Made by a program: the position numbers and the translations under genes. Below are positions 1 through 5,738 of a stretch of DNA of 5,846 bases, in pieces. This DNA is from Chloroflexota bacterium (GTDB lineage Bacteria > Chloroflexota > Dehalococcoidia > Plut-88900), in assembly GCA_022572865.1 (NCBI GenBank), contig JACZVB010000111.1:1-5846 (forward strand). The letters are read 5' to 3'. Under the pieces are notes generated by a model, which did no database searches, was not told the origin of the DNA, and saw only the letters and a list, made by a program, of their open reading frames with translations. Numbering within the stretch: position 1 is the stretch's first letter; each line of letters starts with the position of its first letter.

Positions 1-83
1 TTATGAAAGACATCCCAATTATGATAACTGTGGTCCTGTGGGTGGCCACCACCGTGGCTGTGCTGTGGACATATCGAGGCTGA
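1..83 (+). CDS. C-terminal fragment of a membrane protein, possibly UbiA-family prenyltransferase
   Basis: An open frame enters from the left edge and stops at TGA 81-83. The readable end, from an in-frame ATG at 3, is 26 residues and is mostly one hydrophobic helix (IMITVVLWVATTVAVLW) ending in a short basic tail, TYRG. The pattern D-x-P-x-x-x-T-V-x-L-W followed by a hydrophobic run resembles, from memory, the last transmembrane helix of UbiA-family decaprenyl-phosphate phosphoribosyltransferases. That family assignment is an inference from about 20 residues and is weak. What is seen directly is a membrane segment followed by a stop. The gene is separated from the rpmH promoter by about 230 nt, so it belongs to a different transcription unit. 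It could also be a complete small membrane protein starting at 3. Confidence 0.45.
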   Translation, partial: MKDIPIMITVVLWVATTVAVLWTYRG

Positions 84-317
84 CCCAGGGCCCGGCGCTC
101 ACGCCTGGTGCGTTCGCATGCCCCACGCCTGTCAGGACCGGAACCTTTTGAATCCCGCGGTGGAGTTGATTAGACCCCCCTCAACTGAGCGTTCCGACAG
201 GCCCTATGGGCACCACGCGACGAAGCTCGAGTCCACTGCAGCCCGCCTCAGACAGCAAAAGAAGGGACCATGGCCCTTGAACCCGGATGAAAGAGCGCTC
301 ACTGAGGCCCTATCAGA
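84..317. other. Gene-free stretch upstream of the rpmH promoter
   Basis: I see no supportable gene here. A 67-codon open frame (118-321) lacks a ribosome binding site, has low-complexity unrelated-looking composition, and runs into the -35 box of the rpmH promoter. Two weak inverted repeats are present: GGCG-CTCA-CGCC (94-105) just after the upstream gene's stop, and AGTTGA/TCAACT (164-169 and 181-186) with an 11-nt loop containing six C. Either could help end transcription of the upstream gene, but neither has a T-tract. I saw no TTATCCACA-like DnaA boxes, so there is no sign of an origin. Confidence 0.5.
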
Positions 318-347
318 TTGACACCCTCAAACATGAGGGCTTATACT
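318..347 (+). promoter_or_regulatory. Sigma70-type promoter of the rpmH-rnpA-yidD cluster
   Basis: A perfect -35 box TTGACA (318-323) is followed after 18 nt by TATACT (342-347), which matches the -10 consensus at five of six bases. Transcription would begin near 353-355, leaving a leader of about 19 nt that contains only the ribosome binding site of rpmH. A strong promoter at this place fits a ribosomal protein gene leading an operon. Confidence 0.8.
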
Positions 348-356
348 CTCGAAATC

Positions 357-364
357 AAGGAAGG
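357..364 (+). promoter_or_regulatory. Ribosome binding site of rpmH
   Basis: AAGGAAGG lies 8 nt before the GTG at 373. It fixes the GTG as the start of rpmH, since no ATG fits the family's N-terminus. Confidence 0.75.
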
Positions 365-372
365 TATAAAAA

Positions 373-510
373 GTGCCCAAACGGACCTATCAGCCGAAGA
401 AGCGGCGTCGGAAGCGAAAGCATGGATTCAGGGCTCGGATGAGCACCCGGGGCGGTCGTGATGTATTGCACAGGCGTCGGGTGAAGGGTCGTGATAAGCT
501 GTCCGTATAG
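373..510 (+). CDS. rpmH: 50S ribosomal protein L34
   Basis: This 45-residue, extremely basic protein starts at GTG and ends at TAG. The N-terminus reads [19 protein letters not shown], followed by [17 protein letters not shown] and KGRDKLSV. This is the complete L34 signature ([25 protein letters not shown]), and the length is normal for the family (44-46). L34 sits on the large subunit contacting 23S rRNA. It is the first gene behind the strong promoter at 318-347 and is followed after 45 nt by rnpA, the near-universal bacterial pairing. The GTG start is supported by a good ribosome binding site at 357-364. The gene is too short for many ORF callers but is certain here. Confidence 0.97.
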
Positions 511-555
511 GGCTAAACGCTAGAAAACTAAAGAAAGGGAAACCCGGTCAACGGG

Positions 556-906
556 ATGTTGAAGGGCCAGAGGCTGCGGAGGAGCCGGGACATTACGGCG
601 GTACTGAGGGAAGGTAGGCGCTGGTCCAACGGTCTCCTGGTCTTGGGAATACGTCCCAACGACCTGGGAGTGAACAGGTACGGATTCTCGGTAGGGAAGA
701 GGGTAGGCAAGGCGGTCAGCAGAAACCTGGTCAAACGTAGAATGAGAAACACAGTCAGGGAGCTATCTACTAAACAGGGGTGGGATATCGTGATCATCGC
801 CCGGCAGAACGCCTCCAAGGCCCCGTATAGAGTGCTCCGGCTGGCGCTCCAGGACCTGCTGCGGTCTGCCGGATTGCTGGACACCAAAGCGCTGGCCGCG
901 GGCTGA
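556..906 (+). CDS. rnpA: Ribonuclease P protein component
   Basis: The 116-residue basic protein is the protein subunit of RNase P. It binds the catalytic RNA (rnpB, not in this window) and the 5' leader of precursor tRNAs. The hallmark RNR motif is intact: GKAVSRNLVKRRMR at residues 51-64, preceded by the family's RR(W)S..LLVL strand (21-30) and the YGFSVGKRVG stretch (42-51). A C-terminal WDIVIIAR strand (76-83) and a final helix follow. The length is typical (110-130). The ATG is the only reasonable start in frame, because a stop (TAA 529-531) lies just upstream. The nearest purine-rich tract, AAAGGGA (534-540), is rather far from the ATG, so translation may depend partly on coupling to rpmH. 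The stop is an ordinary TGA. Confidence 0.97.
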   Translation: MLKGQRLRRSRDITAVLREGRRWSNGLLVLGIRPNDLGVNRYGFSVGKRVGKAVSRNLVKRRMRNTVRELSTKQGWDIVIIARQNASKAPYRVLRLALQDLLRSAGLLDTKALAAG

Positions 907-915
907 GGAGAAGGG

Positions 916-1131
916 TTGAAGAAGATTGCTCTTGGTTTGATCAGTTTTTACCAGATTGCCCTATCTCCTTTTTACGGCCCCGGGCCTAATTGCCGTTTCC
1001 TGCCAACCTGTTCAGCCTATGGGCACGAGGCGATTGATAGACACGGCGCTGCCAAAGGCGGCTGGTTGACCCTTAGGCGTCTCGGACGCTGTCACCCGCT
1101 GTCCAGTGGCGGCTACGACCCCGTGCCTTGA
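916..1131 (+). CDS. yidD: Membrane protein insertion efficiency factor YidD
   Basis: YidD is a small protein at the inner face of the membrane that aids YidC-dependent insertion of membrane proteins. The 71-residue product shows the whole family signature in order: an amphipathic N-terminus ([17 protein letters not shown]), the GP.CRF.PTCSAY motif around residues 23-35 with its conserved cysteines, [21 protein letters not shown] and the terminal GGYDPVP. The start is TTG 916, with GAGGAG (905-910) five bases upstream overlapping the rnpA stop, so translation is probably coupled to rnpA. The length matches the compact members of the family (70-85). The stop is TGA. Confidence 0.96.
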
Positions 1132-1169
1132 ACGGATGTCTTCCTCCATTCTGCCTGGTGGCCTCGCTC

Positions 1170-1181
1170 CCCGGGCCCGGG
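1170..1181 (+). other. 12-nt perfect GC palindrome between yidD and the propeller gene
   Basis: CCCGGGCCCGGG is a perfect palindrome followed by GTTT's T-run (TTT 1182-1184) and then a pyrimidine-rich stretch. As RNA it folds as CCCG-GGCC-CGGG. It could act as a weak or partial terminator separating rpmH-rnpA-yidD from the downstream genes, or as part of the leader of the propeller gene. The T-tract is too short to call it a terminator with confidence. Confidence 0.35.
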
Positions 1182-1196
1182 TTTCCATCTTAATCT

Positions 1197-2474
1197 ATGC
1201 CACTTCTTACTAGTTTAAGGGCTGTGTCTCGGGAAGCTTGCCCGAAGGAGGCCGGCTCTGGCCGGCTTCACCTGACTCCTTTTAGATCGCTCCTCATTTT
1301 CTTGGCCATAGCGCTGTTCGTTACCCTTTCGTGCACCCAAGCGGGACTAGGCGGGGGCTTTGACGGTTGGGGCGGGCCCGCTATATCAGGGGATTCAATC
1401 TACCAGCCCTCCAAGAAGGGAAGCGATAGGGCCAGCCTCCGTGTCTTCAGCGCCTTCAATGGGACGGATGAGGGCCGGTTCACTGCGGGAGGAGAGCCTA
1501 TAGCCATCTACGGGACGCCCCTGATAGTGGATATCCCAGGTGGTGGAACGATGATCTACACCACAATGGTGTACAGCGGTGACGGTGGCGATTTCGGACG
1601 AATATTCGCTGTGCGAAAGGGTGATACGGCTGAGAGCGCCTGGGAGTTTCCGGCCCAGGGCCAGGACACCGTCGACCCCATATTTGGGGGCGTGGCCTAT
1701 TCACGGGACACCAATACGGTCTACTTCGGGTCCGAGGACGGCAACCTGTATGCCCTGGACGCACTGGACGGCTCTCCCAAGATCGGCACCGGTGGAGCGT
1801 TTTTTCCCGCAAAAAGCCCAATCTGGTCAACGCCTACGGTCGATAACGGCATAGTCTATTTCGGCACCATGGGAGGCACCCTATTCGGGGTCAGGGAGGA
1901 AGGCGGGAAGGTTATGGAGTTCAAGGCGGGGGGCGCGATTGCAGCCAATCCCGTGGTGAAGGACGGAGTGGTGTATGTGGGGTCGTTCAACAAGAACTTC
2001 TATGCCATCGATCCCAGCGGCAGGGTTAGATGGAGTTTTCCCACCGGCAACTGGATATGGGCAGAAGCCCTCTTGGCCCAGGACCCTAGGGCTGGAGATA
2101 TCATCTTCGTTGGGTCTCTGGATGGTGTCATCTATGCCCTGGAGGCGAACAGTGGAACGCCTCGCTGGGCCTCCCCAGTCGGACAGGGCATTCGAGGGAA
2201 ACCGGTCCTGGCAAGCCGAAGCCTCACCTCTGGACGCACATCCAGCCTGATTGACCAGGTCCTGGTGGTAGGGTCTCGGAACGGCATGGTCTTTGGCTTC
2301 GATGCGAATACAGGAACGGCAGCTTGGGAGCAGCCCTTCGCTGCCGGGGAAAGGGTCCTGGCGCCCCTAGCAGCGCGCAACAACGTAGTCTTCGTATCCA
2401 ACACCGACTACGACCTCTTCGCCATCGACGCCTCCACGGGCCAAAGCATACCGAATTGGGTCACAGGCCAATAG
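1197..2474 (+). CDS. PQQ-type beta-propeller protein, putative lipoprotein
   Basis: The protein has an N-terminal hydrophobic export segment (residues 30-45, FRSLLIFLAIALFVTLS) followed by Cys46, then a repeat domain. At least six copies of a V-x-F/V-G-S/T-x-x-G-x-x-Y/F-A/G-x-D-x-x-x-G blade motif are visible, near residues 175-192, 220-237, 259-275, 303-320, 355-373 and 397-415. A weaker one lies at 120-143. This is the PQQ-like/BamB-type propeller fold, which often scaffolds proteins at the cell surface; no enzyme active site is evident. The lipobox (V-T-L-S-C) is imperfect at -3, so lipidation is likely but not sure. The start is uncertain: the ATG at 1197 has no ribosome binding site and leaves about 30 residues before the signal. 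GTG 1224 and even CTG 1272 are alternatives, and a consensus AAGGAGG sits at 1245-1251. yidC follows after 20 nt, so the two are probably co-transcribed. Confidence 0.85.
   Translation: MPLLTSLRAVSREACPKEAGSGRLHLTPFRSLLIFLAIALFVTLSCTQAGLGGGFDGWGGPAISGDSIYQPSKKGSDRASLRVFSAFNGTDEGRFTAGGEPIAIYGTPLIVDIPGGGTMIYTTMVYSGDGGDFGRIFAVRKGDTAESAWEFPAQGQDTVDPIFGGVAYSRDTNTVYFGSEDGNLYALDALDGSPKIGTGGAFFPAKSPIWSTPTVDNGIVYFGTMGGTLFGVREEGGKVMEFKAGGAIAANPVVKDGVVYVGSFNKNFYAIDPSGRVRWSFPTGNWIWAEALLAQDPRAGDIIFVGSLDGVIYALEANSGTPRWASPVGQGIRGKPVLASRSLTSGRTSSLIDQVLVVGSRNGMVFGFDANTGTAAWEQPFAAGERVLAPLAARNNVVFVSNTDYDLFAIDASTGQSIPNWVTGQ
1229..1266 (+). promoter_or_regulatory. Shine-Dalgarno consensus flanked by two hairpins inside the predicted 5' end of the propeller gene
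   Basis: TCGGG-aagcttg-CCCGA (1229-1245) and GCCGGC-tctg-GCCGGC (1251-1266) are two stable inverted repeats. Exactly between and touching them lies AAGGAGG (1245-1251), a full ribosome binding site. No ATG, GTG or TTG follows at normal distance in the propeller frame. An in-frame CTG at 1272 would yield a textbook signal peptide beginning TPFRSLLIF, with normal effective spacing only if the second hairpin is folded. The layout suggests either a structured leader controlling translation or chance. Confidence 0.3.
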
Positions 2475-2494
2475 CGCTGGTAGAGAGAAGATAA

Positions 2495-3412
2495 TTGGGT
2501 TTCATCAGAGACTTCTTGGGGGAATTCCTAGGCATCATCATCGATGTGATGATGAATGCTCTCATTTTCTTGTATGGGATCCTGGGCGATAACTTTGGGA
2601 TCAGCATAATTGCTTTCACCATAATCGTACGTATCGCCATGTACCCGTTGACCCGTAAGCAGCTTCGCGCCTCCAAGGCTATGTCCACACTCCAGCCCCG
2701 GATTCGCGAGATCCAGCAGAAGTACAGCAAAGATAGGGCCAAGATAAGCCAGGAGACCATGCGGCTGTACAAGGAAGAGGGCGTGAACCCAATTGGCTGC
2801 CTGGGTCCTATGATGATTCAGATGCCCATTTGGATTGGGCTTTACCAATCCATCATAAAGGCCCTACCCAGTAATCCAGAGGGCCTCGTGAGCCTTTCCC
2901 AGAGGCTTTGGGCCTGGGTGCCCGGGGTCCACGAGGCGATTCCATTAAACGAGGGCTTCCTGTGGCTGGACCTCTCGGAGCCCGATCCCTCCAGGGTGCT
3001 TCTTCCCATCCTAGTTGGGGGCTCAATGTGGGTGCAGCAGAAGATGATGACCAGCGGGTCCACCGACCCCAAACAGGCATCGATGAACAGAATGATGCTC
3101 TGGATGATGCCTGTCATGTTCGGTATGTTTACCCTGGGATTTCCCAGCGGCCTGGCCCTTTATTGGGTGGTATCCAACATGATCGGGATAGCGCTGCAGT
3201 ACAGGGCATCGGGGTGGGGCAACTTGTTCCCGGCCTCCGTCCCAGGGGCAGAGGCTGCCAAACAGGCTGCAACGGATACTTCAAAGGAGATGGTGGTCCA
3301 TGGAGAGCTTGGAAGTGACGGCCAAGACGGTGGAGGAGGCGATAGAGCTGGCGCTGAAGGAGCTAGGCGTAGACCGAGAAGAGGTCGACGTCGTCGTCGT
3401 CACCGAAGGTAG
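2495..3412 (+). CDS. yidC: Membrane protein insertase YidC/Oxa1 family, short form with arginine-rich C-tail
   Basis: YidC inserts and folds proteins in the cytoplasmic membrane, alone or with SecYEG. This 305-residue form lacks the large periplasmic domain of Proteobacteria and has no lipobox. Seen in order: the core NFGISIIAFTIIVRIAMYPLT (33-53) with the hydrophilic-groove arginine R46; the cytoplasmic charged hairpin with QPRIREIQQKYSKDRAKISQE (67-87); NPIGCLGPMMIQMPIW (98-113); a membrane segment near 168-180; and the last pair of segments with FPSGLALYWVVSN (216-228). The tail from about residue 240 is hydrophilic and ends in RRRPRRGRRRRRHRR, with 12 arginines in 15 residues. The start is TTG 2495 behind GAGAGAAG (2482-2489). 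The last 113 nt overlap jag in another frame. The nearest relatives of this tail type are ribosome-binding tails of Oxa1 and some bacterial YidCs, a functional inference here. Confidence 0.95.
   Translation: MGFIRDFLGEFLGIIIDVMMNALIFLYGILGDNFGISIIAFTIIVRIAMYPLTRKQLRASKAMSTLQPRIREIQQKYSKDRAKISQETMRLYKEEGVNPIGCLGPMMIQMPIWIGLYQSIIKALPSNPEGLVSLSQRLWAWVPGVHEAIPLNEGFLWLDLSEPDPSRVLLPILVGGSMWVQQKMMTSGSTDPKQASMNRMMLWMMPVMFGMFTLGFPSGLALYWVVSNMIGIALQYRASGWGNLFPASVPGAEAAKQAATDTSKEMVVHGELGSDGQDGGGGDRAGAEGARRRPRRGRRRRRHRR
3283..3289 (+). promoter_or_regulatory. Ribosome binding site of jag, inside yidC
   Basis: AAAGGAG lies 10 nt before the ATG at 3300, within yidC codons for residues 263-265. It fixes the jag start well upstream of the yidC stop and so establishes the 113-nt overlap. 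Confidence 0.75.
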
Positions 3413-3993: not shown

Positions 3994-4872
3994 GTGACGT
4001 TGCATGCGCCCGATTTTCTAGCCATAGGCCACGTGGCTAAGGACAGAGACCCACACACCGGCAAGCTTCGAACCGGCGGCACCGCAGCCTATTCGGCTTT
4101 GACTGCTGCCAGGCTGGGATTGAGGGCCGCCTTGACCACCAGCTTGGCCTGCCGGGAGCTGCTATCGCCCCTCGGGCCGGATATACAACTGTTCGTGGCG
4201 CCTTCTCCCAATACGACGACTTTCATCAACGACTATTCCCTGGGTCTGCGGCGCCAGCAGGTAAGCTCCATAGCTGGGACCATCCAGGCACAACATGTTC
4301 CCCTTCGTTGGCGGGAGGCCTCGATTGTCCACATCGGCCCCATCGCCCGGGAGATCGAGCCCGGCATCATAGACCTGTTTCCAGATGCGCTGGTATGCGT
4401 CAGTCCTCAGGGCTGGATGCGCCGCTGGGACGATGCCGGTGAGGTGACGATGGGACCCTGGGAGGATGCCGAACCGGTGCTGTCCAGGGCCGATATCCTG
4501 GTGCTGTCCGAGGAGGACACAGCCCACGAGCCGGGATTGGAACGAAGCTACAGTTCAACGGTGCCCGTCGTGGTACTCACCCAGGGCAGCCGTGGGGCCC
4601 AGGTGTATGCCCGAGGGGACCGGTTCCACGTCCCCGCATTTCCATCCCAAACGGTGGACCCCACCGGGGCCGGCGATGTATATGCCGCAGCCTTCGCTAT
4701 CCGCTACCACGAAACCCGCGACCCACTCGACGCTGCAACCTTCGCCGCCTGCACCGCCAGCTTTGTCGTGGAGGGCTGGGGCCTCGAGGCCATTCCAACG
4801 AGAAAACAGGTGACTACTCGCCTAGACCAATGGGGACTGGGCTCGAAAGGTTCCCCTTCCAAGGCCCGGTGA
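3994..4872 (+). CDS. PfkB/ribokinase-family carbohydrate kinase
   Basis: This family transfers phosphate from ATP to a sugar or nucleoside; the substrate cannot be read from the sequence. The signatures are an N-terminal strand DFLAIGHVAKDR, the substrate-side GGTAAYSALTAARLGL motif, VVVLTQGSRGAQVY (ATP-side strand), and the PfkB signature 2, TVDPTGAGDVYAAAFA. The anion-hole GAGD ends in the catalytic Asp (residue 228 from this start). A final AACTASFVVEGWG helix follows. From GTG 3994 the protein has 292 residues, a normal length, and GAGG (3982-3985) lies 8 nt upstream. The same frame is open from TTG 3895, overlapping jag by 41 nt, but the added 33 residues are Pro/Ser/Gly-rich and precede the fold, so I prefer 3994. 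It lies where mnmE often follows jag. The stop is TGA. Confidence 0.88.
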   Translation: MTLHAPDFLAIGHVAKDRDPHTGKLRTGGTAAYSALTAARLGLRAALTTSLACRELLSPLGPDIQLFVAPSPNTTTFINDYSLGLRRQQVSSIAGTIQAQHVPLRWREASIVHIGPIAREIEPGIIDLFPDALVCVSPQGWMRRWDDAGEVTMGPWEDAEPVLSRADILVLSEEDTAHEPGLERSYSSTVPVVVLTQGSRGAQVYARGDRFHVPAFPSQTVDPTGAGDVYAAAFAIRYHETRDPLDAATFAACTASFVVEGWGLEAIPTRKQVTTRLDQWGLGSKGSPSKAR

Positions 4873-4980: not shown

Positions 4981-5018
4981 GGGGCTGTAGCTCAGTTGGG
5001 AGAGCACCTGCTTTGCAC
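4981..5018 (+). tRNA. Truncated tRNA-Ala(UGC), 5' half only
   Basis: The sequence matches the 5' half of a bacterial tRNA-Ala: acceptor strand GGGGCTG (4981-4987), TA, D-stem GCTC and GAGC (4990-4993 and 5002-5005) around loop AGTTGGGA, A26, anticodon-stem strand CCTGC (5007-5011) and loop TTTGCAC (5012-5018) with anticodon TGC at 5014-5016. The next bases should be the pairing strand GCAGG, then variable loop, T-arm and acceptor complement. Instead TTATTCCGCC follows, and I find no T-arm plus CAGCTCC end anywhere to the right. Identity as tRNA-Ala is firm; the gene as present cannot give a functional tRNA. Integration or recombination at the anticodon loop, or an assembly join, could explain the break. 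Confidence 0.85.
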
Positions 5019-5315: not shown

Positions 5316-5332
5316 CTTAGGCTTCACCTAAG
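5316..5332 (-). other. Hairpin spanning the stop codon of the DsrE-family gene
   Basis: CTTAGG-cttca-CCTAAG is a perfect 6-bp stem with a 5-nt loop that includes the minus-strand TAG (5330-5328). It has no following T-tract. It may protect the mRNA 3' end or contribute to termination. Confidence 0.3.
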
Positions 5333-5690
5333 TCGATATGACGTTGGTCGCAGCAGCTGAAAGCTCAGCAAACTCTCTCGGATTTGTAAATTTGGCGTTC
5401 TTACCTTGAAGGTCTGCCTCGGTGACCCCACGGGCCGTCGAGCAACCACCTCAGACATATACTTGAACGCCGTGGCCAATCGTCGTTGCCATGATGTCCT
5501 TGAGAGGCGGCCAGCCGACGGGAACGATGCTTTCTGCTACGACGTCTTTCATGATTACTACAGCGTCCCCGAATAGCACAATCTGGGCCTCATGGCCTGC
5601 ATCTACCGCTCCATTTGCGCCGAGAAACGGCAACACCGCCTTGGTTGGATTCTCCGAGCCATTAGTGCTGAAATACAGTAGTGTTGCCAT
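5328..5690 (-). CDS. DsrE-family selenoprotein with in-frame UGA (Sec80) in a UGGC motif
   Basis: Read with UGA as selenocysteine, this is a 120-residue protein. It starts at ATG 5690 (MATLLYFSTNGSENPTKA) behind GGGAGGT (5707-5701). The N-terminal part is the DsrE/DsrF fold: an MATLLYF strand, a helix containing the AVLPFLGANGAVDAGHEA stretch, the strand QIVLFGDAV, IVPVGWPPLKDIM, and the strand VQVYV (75-79). Codon 80 is TGA (5453-5451). The frame then continues GGCSTARGVTEADLQGKNAK, FTNPREFAEL and a final helix to TAG (5330-5328). In cysteine homologues of this family, as I remember them, this place reads CGGC followed by (S/A)RARGVT..DL.GKN, so the UGA replaces the first Cys of a CxxC redox pair. 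Sec80 and Cys83 would form the active pair. A hairpin follows the UGA directly. DsrE-like selenoproteins are known from marine metagenome surveys. An inactivating mutation or sequence error is the alternative. Confidence 0.8.
5421..5450 (-). promoter_or_regulatory. Candidate bacterial SECIS hairpin directly after the UGA codon
   Basis: On the minus-strand transcript, GGUGGU (5450-5445) pairs with GUCACC (5426-5421), including two G-U pairs. An upper stem ACG/CGU (5438-5436 with 5432-5430) closes a small G-C-C loop, with further CUC/GGG pairing possible in between. The hairpin begins at the first base after the UGA, and its apical loop begins with G about 15 nt downstream. This fits the general geometry of bacterial SECIS elements, which lie within the coding region just 3' of the Sec codon. 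Folding was judged by eye. Confidence 0.5.
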
Positions 5691-5738
5691 AGGGTTCGAT
5701 ACCTCCCACACAGTGTGCATCAACCTGGGGTAGCCTGA

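Follow-up and report, generated by a model that had tools for sequence, protein, structure and literature searches.

A DsrE-domain frame with an in-frame TGA

The window, i.e., the whole stretch of 5,846 nucleotides analysed here, carries on its minus strand (5690-5328) a single frame encoding a DsrE domain, in which a start codon (ATG, 5690-5688) is followed by 78 codons, an in-frame TGA at codon 80 and 40 further codons (GGCSTARGVTEADLQGKNAKFTNPREFAELSAAATNVIST) that run to a TAG at 5330-5328 (Table 1). The TGA falls in the first position of what is C-x-x-C in cysteine homologues. Read through this codon, the frame matches the Pfam DsrE family (PF02635) with an E-value of 2.1e-11 and 44.4 bits against a gathering cut-off of 22.7, while the 79-aa stub stays under the cut-off (17.4 bits, E 0.0053) and the 40-aa tail by itself gives no DsrE match in a Pfam scan. 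Elsewhere in the window UGA is an ordinary stop, ending rnpA (904-906), yidD (1129-1131), a kinase gene (4870-4872) and the left-edge gene (81-83), names that were given from sequence without a family scan; thus, the code is not reassigned. The original prediction had described both this interrupted frame with its 40-codon continuation and the ordinary UGA stops of the same four genes, and the codons, re-read in the window, together with the Pfam result agree with it on either point.

Table 1 Features of the DsrE locus in the window (minus strand)
Feature	Position	Strand	Basis or remark
Predicted DsrE-family selenoprotein gene, 120 residues with U80	5328..5690	-	frame, Pfam, AlphaFold2 pLDDT 96.1
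In-frame TGA, codon 80, putative Sec	5451..5453	-	TGA in 61/83 distinct genes
Cys83 codon TGC, probable resolving partner in U-G-G-C	5442..5444	-	
Shine-Dalgarno-like GGGAGG, 11 nt before ATG 5690	5702..5707	-	sequence
Apical hairpin, bacterial SECIS-type, GGCCC-GUG-GGGUC	5424..5436	-	loop starts 19 nt past UGA; conservation, folding
Longer stem-loop enclosing UGA and apical hairpin; lower stem variable in relatives	5407..5453	-	-20.3 kcal/mol, z about -1

A protein search recovered 407 homologues, and of the 120 listed, 113 are exactly 79 aa long, i.e., predicted up to the same codon, just as had been guessed when a truncated annotation was foreseen for this gene. Many database entries for this DsrE branch are shortened at the putative Sec codon.

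On the plus strand, positions 4981-5017 resemble the 5' half of a tRNA gene, by its likeness a tRNA-Ala(TGC), which ends abruptly within the anticodon loop. ARAGORN and Rfam (gathering scores) gave no hits over the window, and the DNA after the half tRNA is not tRNA. Similar half-tRNA-like stretches are present in three other genomes of the class (98-100% over 38-41 nt), and none was found in the DsrE loci of the relatives compared. An integration scar, an interrupted tRNA, a rearrangement or an assembly join could each have produced it, and given this half tRNA, the link between the DsrE gene and the rest of the contig could be non-native.

TGA, cysteine and serine among relatives

In a collection with one genome per species, eight of nine loci carry the TGA with the frame continuing past it, and the ninth (L009) ends at a contig end ahead of codon 80. 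Additional loci were obtained by searching 294 genomes of the class, 247 of the order, two of the order (the search starting from G001) and 400 of the phylum, these sets overlapping; loci were kept for the best matches only, and 14 more were chosen in the phylum search for having a TGA inside. After duplicate removal, column 80 of the 83 distinct genes is TGA in 61 (the window included), Cys in 17 and Ser in five, a TGA share biased toward TGA forms and close relatives by the use of best-match loci and of the 14 chosen ones. The second motif codon of the 61 TGA-form genes is TGC or TGT in 58 and again TGA in three.

Only one full-length Cys homologue (P0001, 62% identical, C-G-G-C) occurs among the 120 listed proteins, and a search starting from it returned 17 proteins (itself counted). 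Homologues had been expected to hold Cys at position 80, and they largely do so, both in the non-TGA genes (17 of 22, with Ser in five) and in the proteins found from P0001 (16 of 17, with Arg in one); the in-frame UGA is hence aligned with the Cys of homologues, a criterion for bacterial selenoproteins. The protein with Arg at the Sec/Cys column, P0122, is a 120-aa homologue (longest contig 1.7 Mb), for which loss of function and error stand as alternatives. Five loci (L042, L060, L072, L074 and L088) have Ser at both motif positions (S-x-x-S), which indicates that some relatives function without a thiol or selenol at the motif. None of nine viral-contig stretches matching a pattern encodes a relative.

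Coding constraint was compared on both sides of the TGA using 88 pairs of TGA-form genes with at least 60% identity over residues 1-79 (44 genes, seven duplicate loci excluded). The pN/pS ratios are 0.300 for codons 1-79, 0.216 for codons 81-92 and 0.326 for codons 93-119, and protein-level selection in these genes is unchanged across the TGA. The 79-aa database predictions and the normal use of UGA as a stop elsewhere in the window would both suit a pseudogene or a true 79-residue protein followed by a decayed remnant. We consider this very unlikely, as the TGA is shared by most of the distinct genes, constraint is about equal on its two sides (the downstream pN/pS already contradicts decay), the Pfam cut-off is reached only with both halves, and the predicted fold places its final two strands and three helical segments after the TGA.

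A conserved hairpin downstream of the TGA

When 47 TGA-form genes were folded with RNAalifold, a single helix was obtained, pairing positions 18-22 with 26-30 from the UGA around a GUG loop. The closing pair (18/30) is G-C in 27 genes, C-G in 17 and unpaired in three, and at the fourth pair (21/27) 43 genes have C-G, two U-A and one U-G, with one unpaired. The sequence GCCCGTGGGGT at +19 to +29 is exact in 51 of 61 TGA genes, with ten deviating from this 11-mer, vs. none of 22 others. Codon usage follows the same line: Arg87 is CGT in 43/47 TGA genes and in 0/17 Arg codons of the Cys/Ser genes, Gly88 is GGG in 43/46 vs. 3/13, and in TGA genes Ala86 is GCC in 44/46 and Val89 is GTC or GTG in 44/44. 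At least four of the five apical pairs are possible in 45/47 TGA genes compared with 3/22 others, and for the exceptions (L023 and L052) a shifted hairpin looks possible by eye. The single-sequence MFE fold is without the apical helix in 13/47 TGA genes. Comparison of these sequences shows a hairpin that is conserved and covarying.

Folding energy (-18.7 to -20.5 kcal/mol) was dropped as evidence, given z-scores of only about -1 (-0.75 to -1.15), and covariation and codon invariance were used instead. The published bSECIS model (PMC13188914) describes an apical loop of 3-9 nt with G within its first two positions, an upper stem of 4-16 bp, a spacing of 16-37 nt and an MFE <= -7.5. The window hairpin, with its 3-nt GUG loop, 5 bp, 19-nt spacing and the folding energy given above, fits this rule, which we applied as a scripted version and not through bSECISearch. 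In its loose form the rule is passed by 59/61 TGA genes and 6/22 others, and also by 54% of shuffles (a figure covering its loop, stem and spacing part), so it was set aside as evidence; with stems of at least 5 bp, 59/61 TGA genes, 3/22 others and 29% of shuffles pass. A SECIS prediction downstream of the TGA had been suggested as a check, and the hairpin seen there is conserved and fits the published bacterial rule, in this scripted and loose form.

These comparisons also bear on whether the TGA might be a sequencing or assembly error for TGC or TGT. The codon is seen in the assembly only and Cys homologues such as P0001 exist, yet the TGA recurs in many separate genomes, together with a hairpin sequence missing from the 22 Cys/Ser forms, and an error is in our view exceedingly improbable.

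Selenocysteine machinery in relatives

A tRNA-Sec was found above cut-off in eight of the first nine genomes (66-76 bits), with a leaky cut-off that 5/14 controls also pass. In 36 hand-chosen genomes (35 TGA carriers and G009, where the gene is cut by the contig end), SelA, SelB and SelD lie above cut-off in 33, 32 and 31, respectively, against 1, 2 and 2 of 14 controls. An in-frame TGA is present inside 30 of the 31 SelD genes, which is an independent sign of Sec decoding. G322, whose gene has two TGAs, is the sole genome among the 36 in which SelA, SelB and SelD are all absent above cut-off; SelB above cut-off was likewise not found in G001, G005 and G561, with fragment-like matches in the first two.

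SelB is common in the class (above cut-off in 198/294 genomes), and among the 47 class genomes with a DsrE match it occurs in 6/7 TGA carriers vs. 30/40 others; SelB presence was discarded as a discriminator, and its link with the gene is expected but not specific. One genome, G014, matches window positions 1-3281 at 96.25% and encodes SelB in a frame of 620 aa. The class-genome search did not find the DsrE gene there, and the matching G014 contig stops at window position 3281, so that the DsrE locus lies beyond that contig. From the relatives and the SelB-bearing G014 we infer that the organism of the window probably decodes Sec.

Conserved coding past the TGA would also be explained if a standard residue were inserted at UGA (Trp, or by near-cognate suppression) or if the codon had been reassigned. 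However, UGA stops four other genes in the window, column 80 otherwise holds Cys, Ser and, in a single protein, Arg but not Trp, and most carriers tested have the Sec machinery and a UGA-containing SelD; such a reading is highly unlikely.

Fold and possible function

AlphaFold2 (17 sequences, with Sec80 as Cys) models the whole 120 residues with a pLDDT of 96.1. A strand (76-80) ends at Sec80 and gives way to a helix (81-87), after which come helix 91-94, strand 99-102, helix 104-113 and strand 116-119. These three helical segments and the final two strands lie past the TGA, and a confident, complete fold is obtained with the read-through part included. The model has the DsrE/YchN fold, its top five structural matches being YchN, SSO1126 (2qs7), TusD, 3mc3 and DsrE (TMq 0.74-0.83). 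A single-sequence PDB search gave no match at E <= 1, and NCBIfam at E <= 0.1 gave no family for the window protein (TusD, DsrE and DsrE2 included), while 20 aligned members searched in NCBIfam gave weak matches to TusD (two) and DsrE2 (one).

YchN (1jx7), the top structural match (TMq 0.74), has a C-K-T-C that a weak profile match (E 0.052) places opposite U80-C83; it shares only 16% identity with the window protein and has Cys in place of Sec. Several of the proteins P0121 and P0123-P0136 are named "predicted peroxiredoxin", and this group shows C-G-x-C-xxARGVT at the same columns, differing in having Cys for Sec and mostly an N-terminal extension that looks signal-sequence-like by eye. The fold is also like that of TusD (2d1p) and DsrE (2hy5) of the sulfur relay, whereas the window protein is without an NCBIfam match and is known here from gene and model.

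This likeness, together with the persulfide on Cys78 of A. vinosum DsrE (PMC3397948), raises the possibility of a TusD/DsrE-type sulfurtransferase rather than a redox enzyme, with Sec80 carrying the transferred sulfur, which would be compatible with Sec decoding. Against it stand the lack of any NCBIfam match for the window protein and the second Cys of UxxC, which suggests a redox pair. In the ORF list, read by eye, the neighbours vary among L001-L008 and no dsr/tus operon was recognised among them, which also weighs against a sulfurtransferase; as a function clue, the gene neighbourhood was discarded because the neighbours differ. A sulfurtransferase role is possible but less likely than not, and from motif and modelled fold our preferred reading is that U80 and C83 take part in redox or sulfane-sulfur chemistry.

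Forms with two TGA codons

In L021, L052 and L054 both codons 80 and 83 are TGA (U-x-x-U), and only ~10 nt separate the second TGA from the hairpin loop, a spacing below the published range of 16-37 nt. Of the three carriers, G097 and G377 possess selA, selB and selD, and G322 showed none of these. It seems fairly probable that in this sub-branch a single hairpin directs Sec insertion at both codons, the pair forming a diselenide in the DsrE fold. These relatives are less expected than UxxC: UxxU is reported for Prx-like and other families, and a UxxU DsrE was not found among the matches listed in a search of open-licence PMC articles, taken without supplements.

Discussion

We conclude, with a probability of roughly 0.95, that the locus encodes a selenoprotein of 120 residues with a DsrE/YchN fold, probably cytosolic, in which UGA80 is decoded as Sec and U80-C83 would take part in a redox or sulfane-sulfur reaction. 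The selenoprotein interpretation first proposed for this DNA is strongly supported by what comparison at the sequence level brings out, i.e., the conserved UGA, continued coding downstream, the covarying hairpin and the machinery in relatives. During translation, tRNA-Sec and SelB would decode codon 80, with SelB presumably binding the mRNA hairpin just 3' of the UGA (loop GUG 19 nt downstream). Sec80 would then sit at the strand end and helix start, in the CxxC place of the Cys homologues and with Cys83 as its partner, and would most likely be the reactive nucleophile in a thiol/selenol redox or sulfane-sulfur-handling reaction, which may be resolved via a Sec80-Cys83 selenenylsulfide.

DsrE-like selenoproteins had been said to be known already from ocean metagenomes, and they have indeed been published since 2005: two UxxC genes from the Sargasso Sea (PMC1088965), a report for Desulfovibrio vulgaris in 2006 (PMC1794560), the UxxC groups "DsrE 2" (19 sequences) and "DsrE 1" (two) from GOS in 2008 (PMC2398784), and WP_014524487.1 (UxxC) in a 2026 review table (PMC13188914). 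Compared by description only, these have PF02635 and a predicted Sec in a bacterial gene in common with ours, and the 2005, 2008 and 2026 papers also give the UxxC motif. The UxxC kind is already known and novelty here is modest; a Chloroflexota branch of DsrE selenoproteins was not found among the matches listed for open-licence PMC articles without their supplements.

A 2006 survey counted three selenoproteins for the phylum (PMC1794560), and the TGA-form gene recurs across it in the genomes sampled. The truncated entries are an annotation error with biological content, as they lose a third of the protein, including the second Cys of the motif along with two strands and three helical segments. 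Genes with the nearly invariant hairpin make up a natural series in which recognition of the SECIS by SelB can be studied, and with the UxxU forms one could ask if two insertions spaced by 9 nt can depend on a single SECIS.
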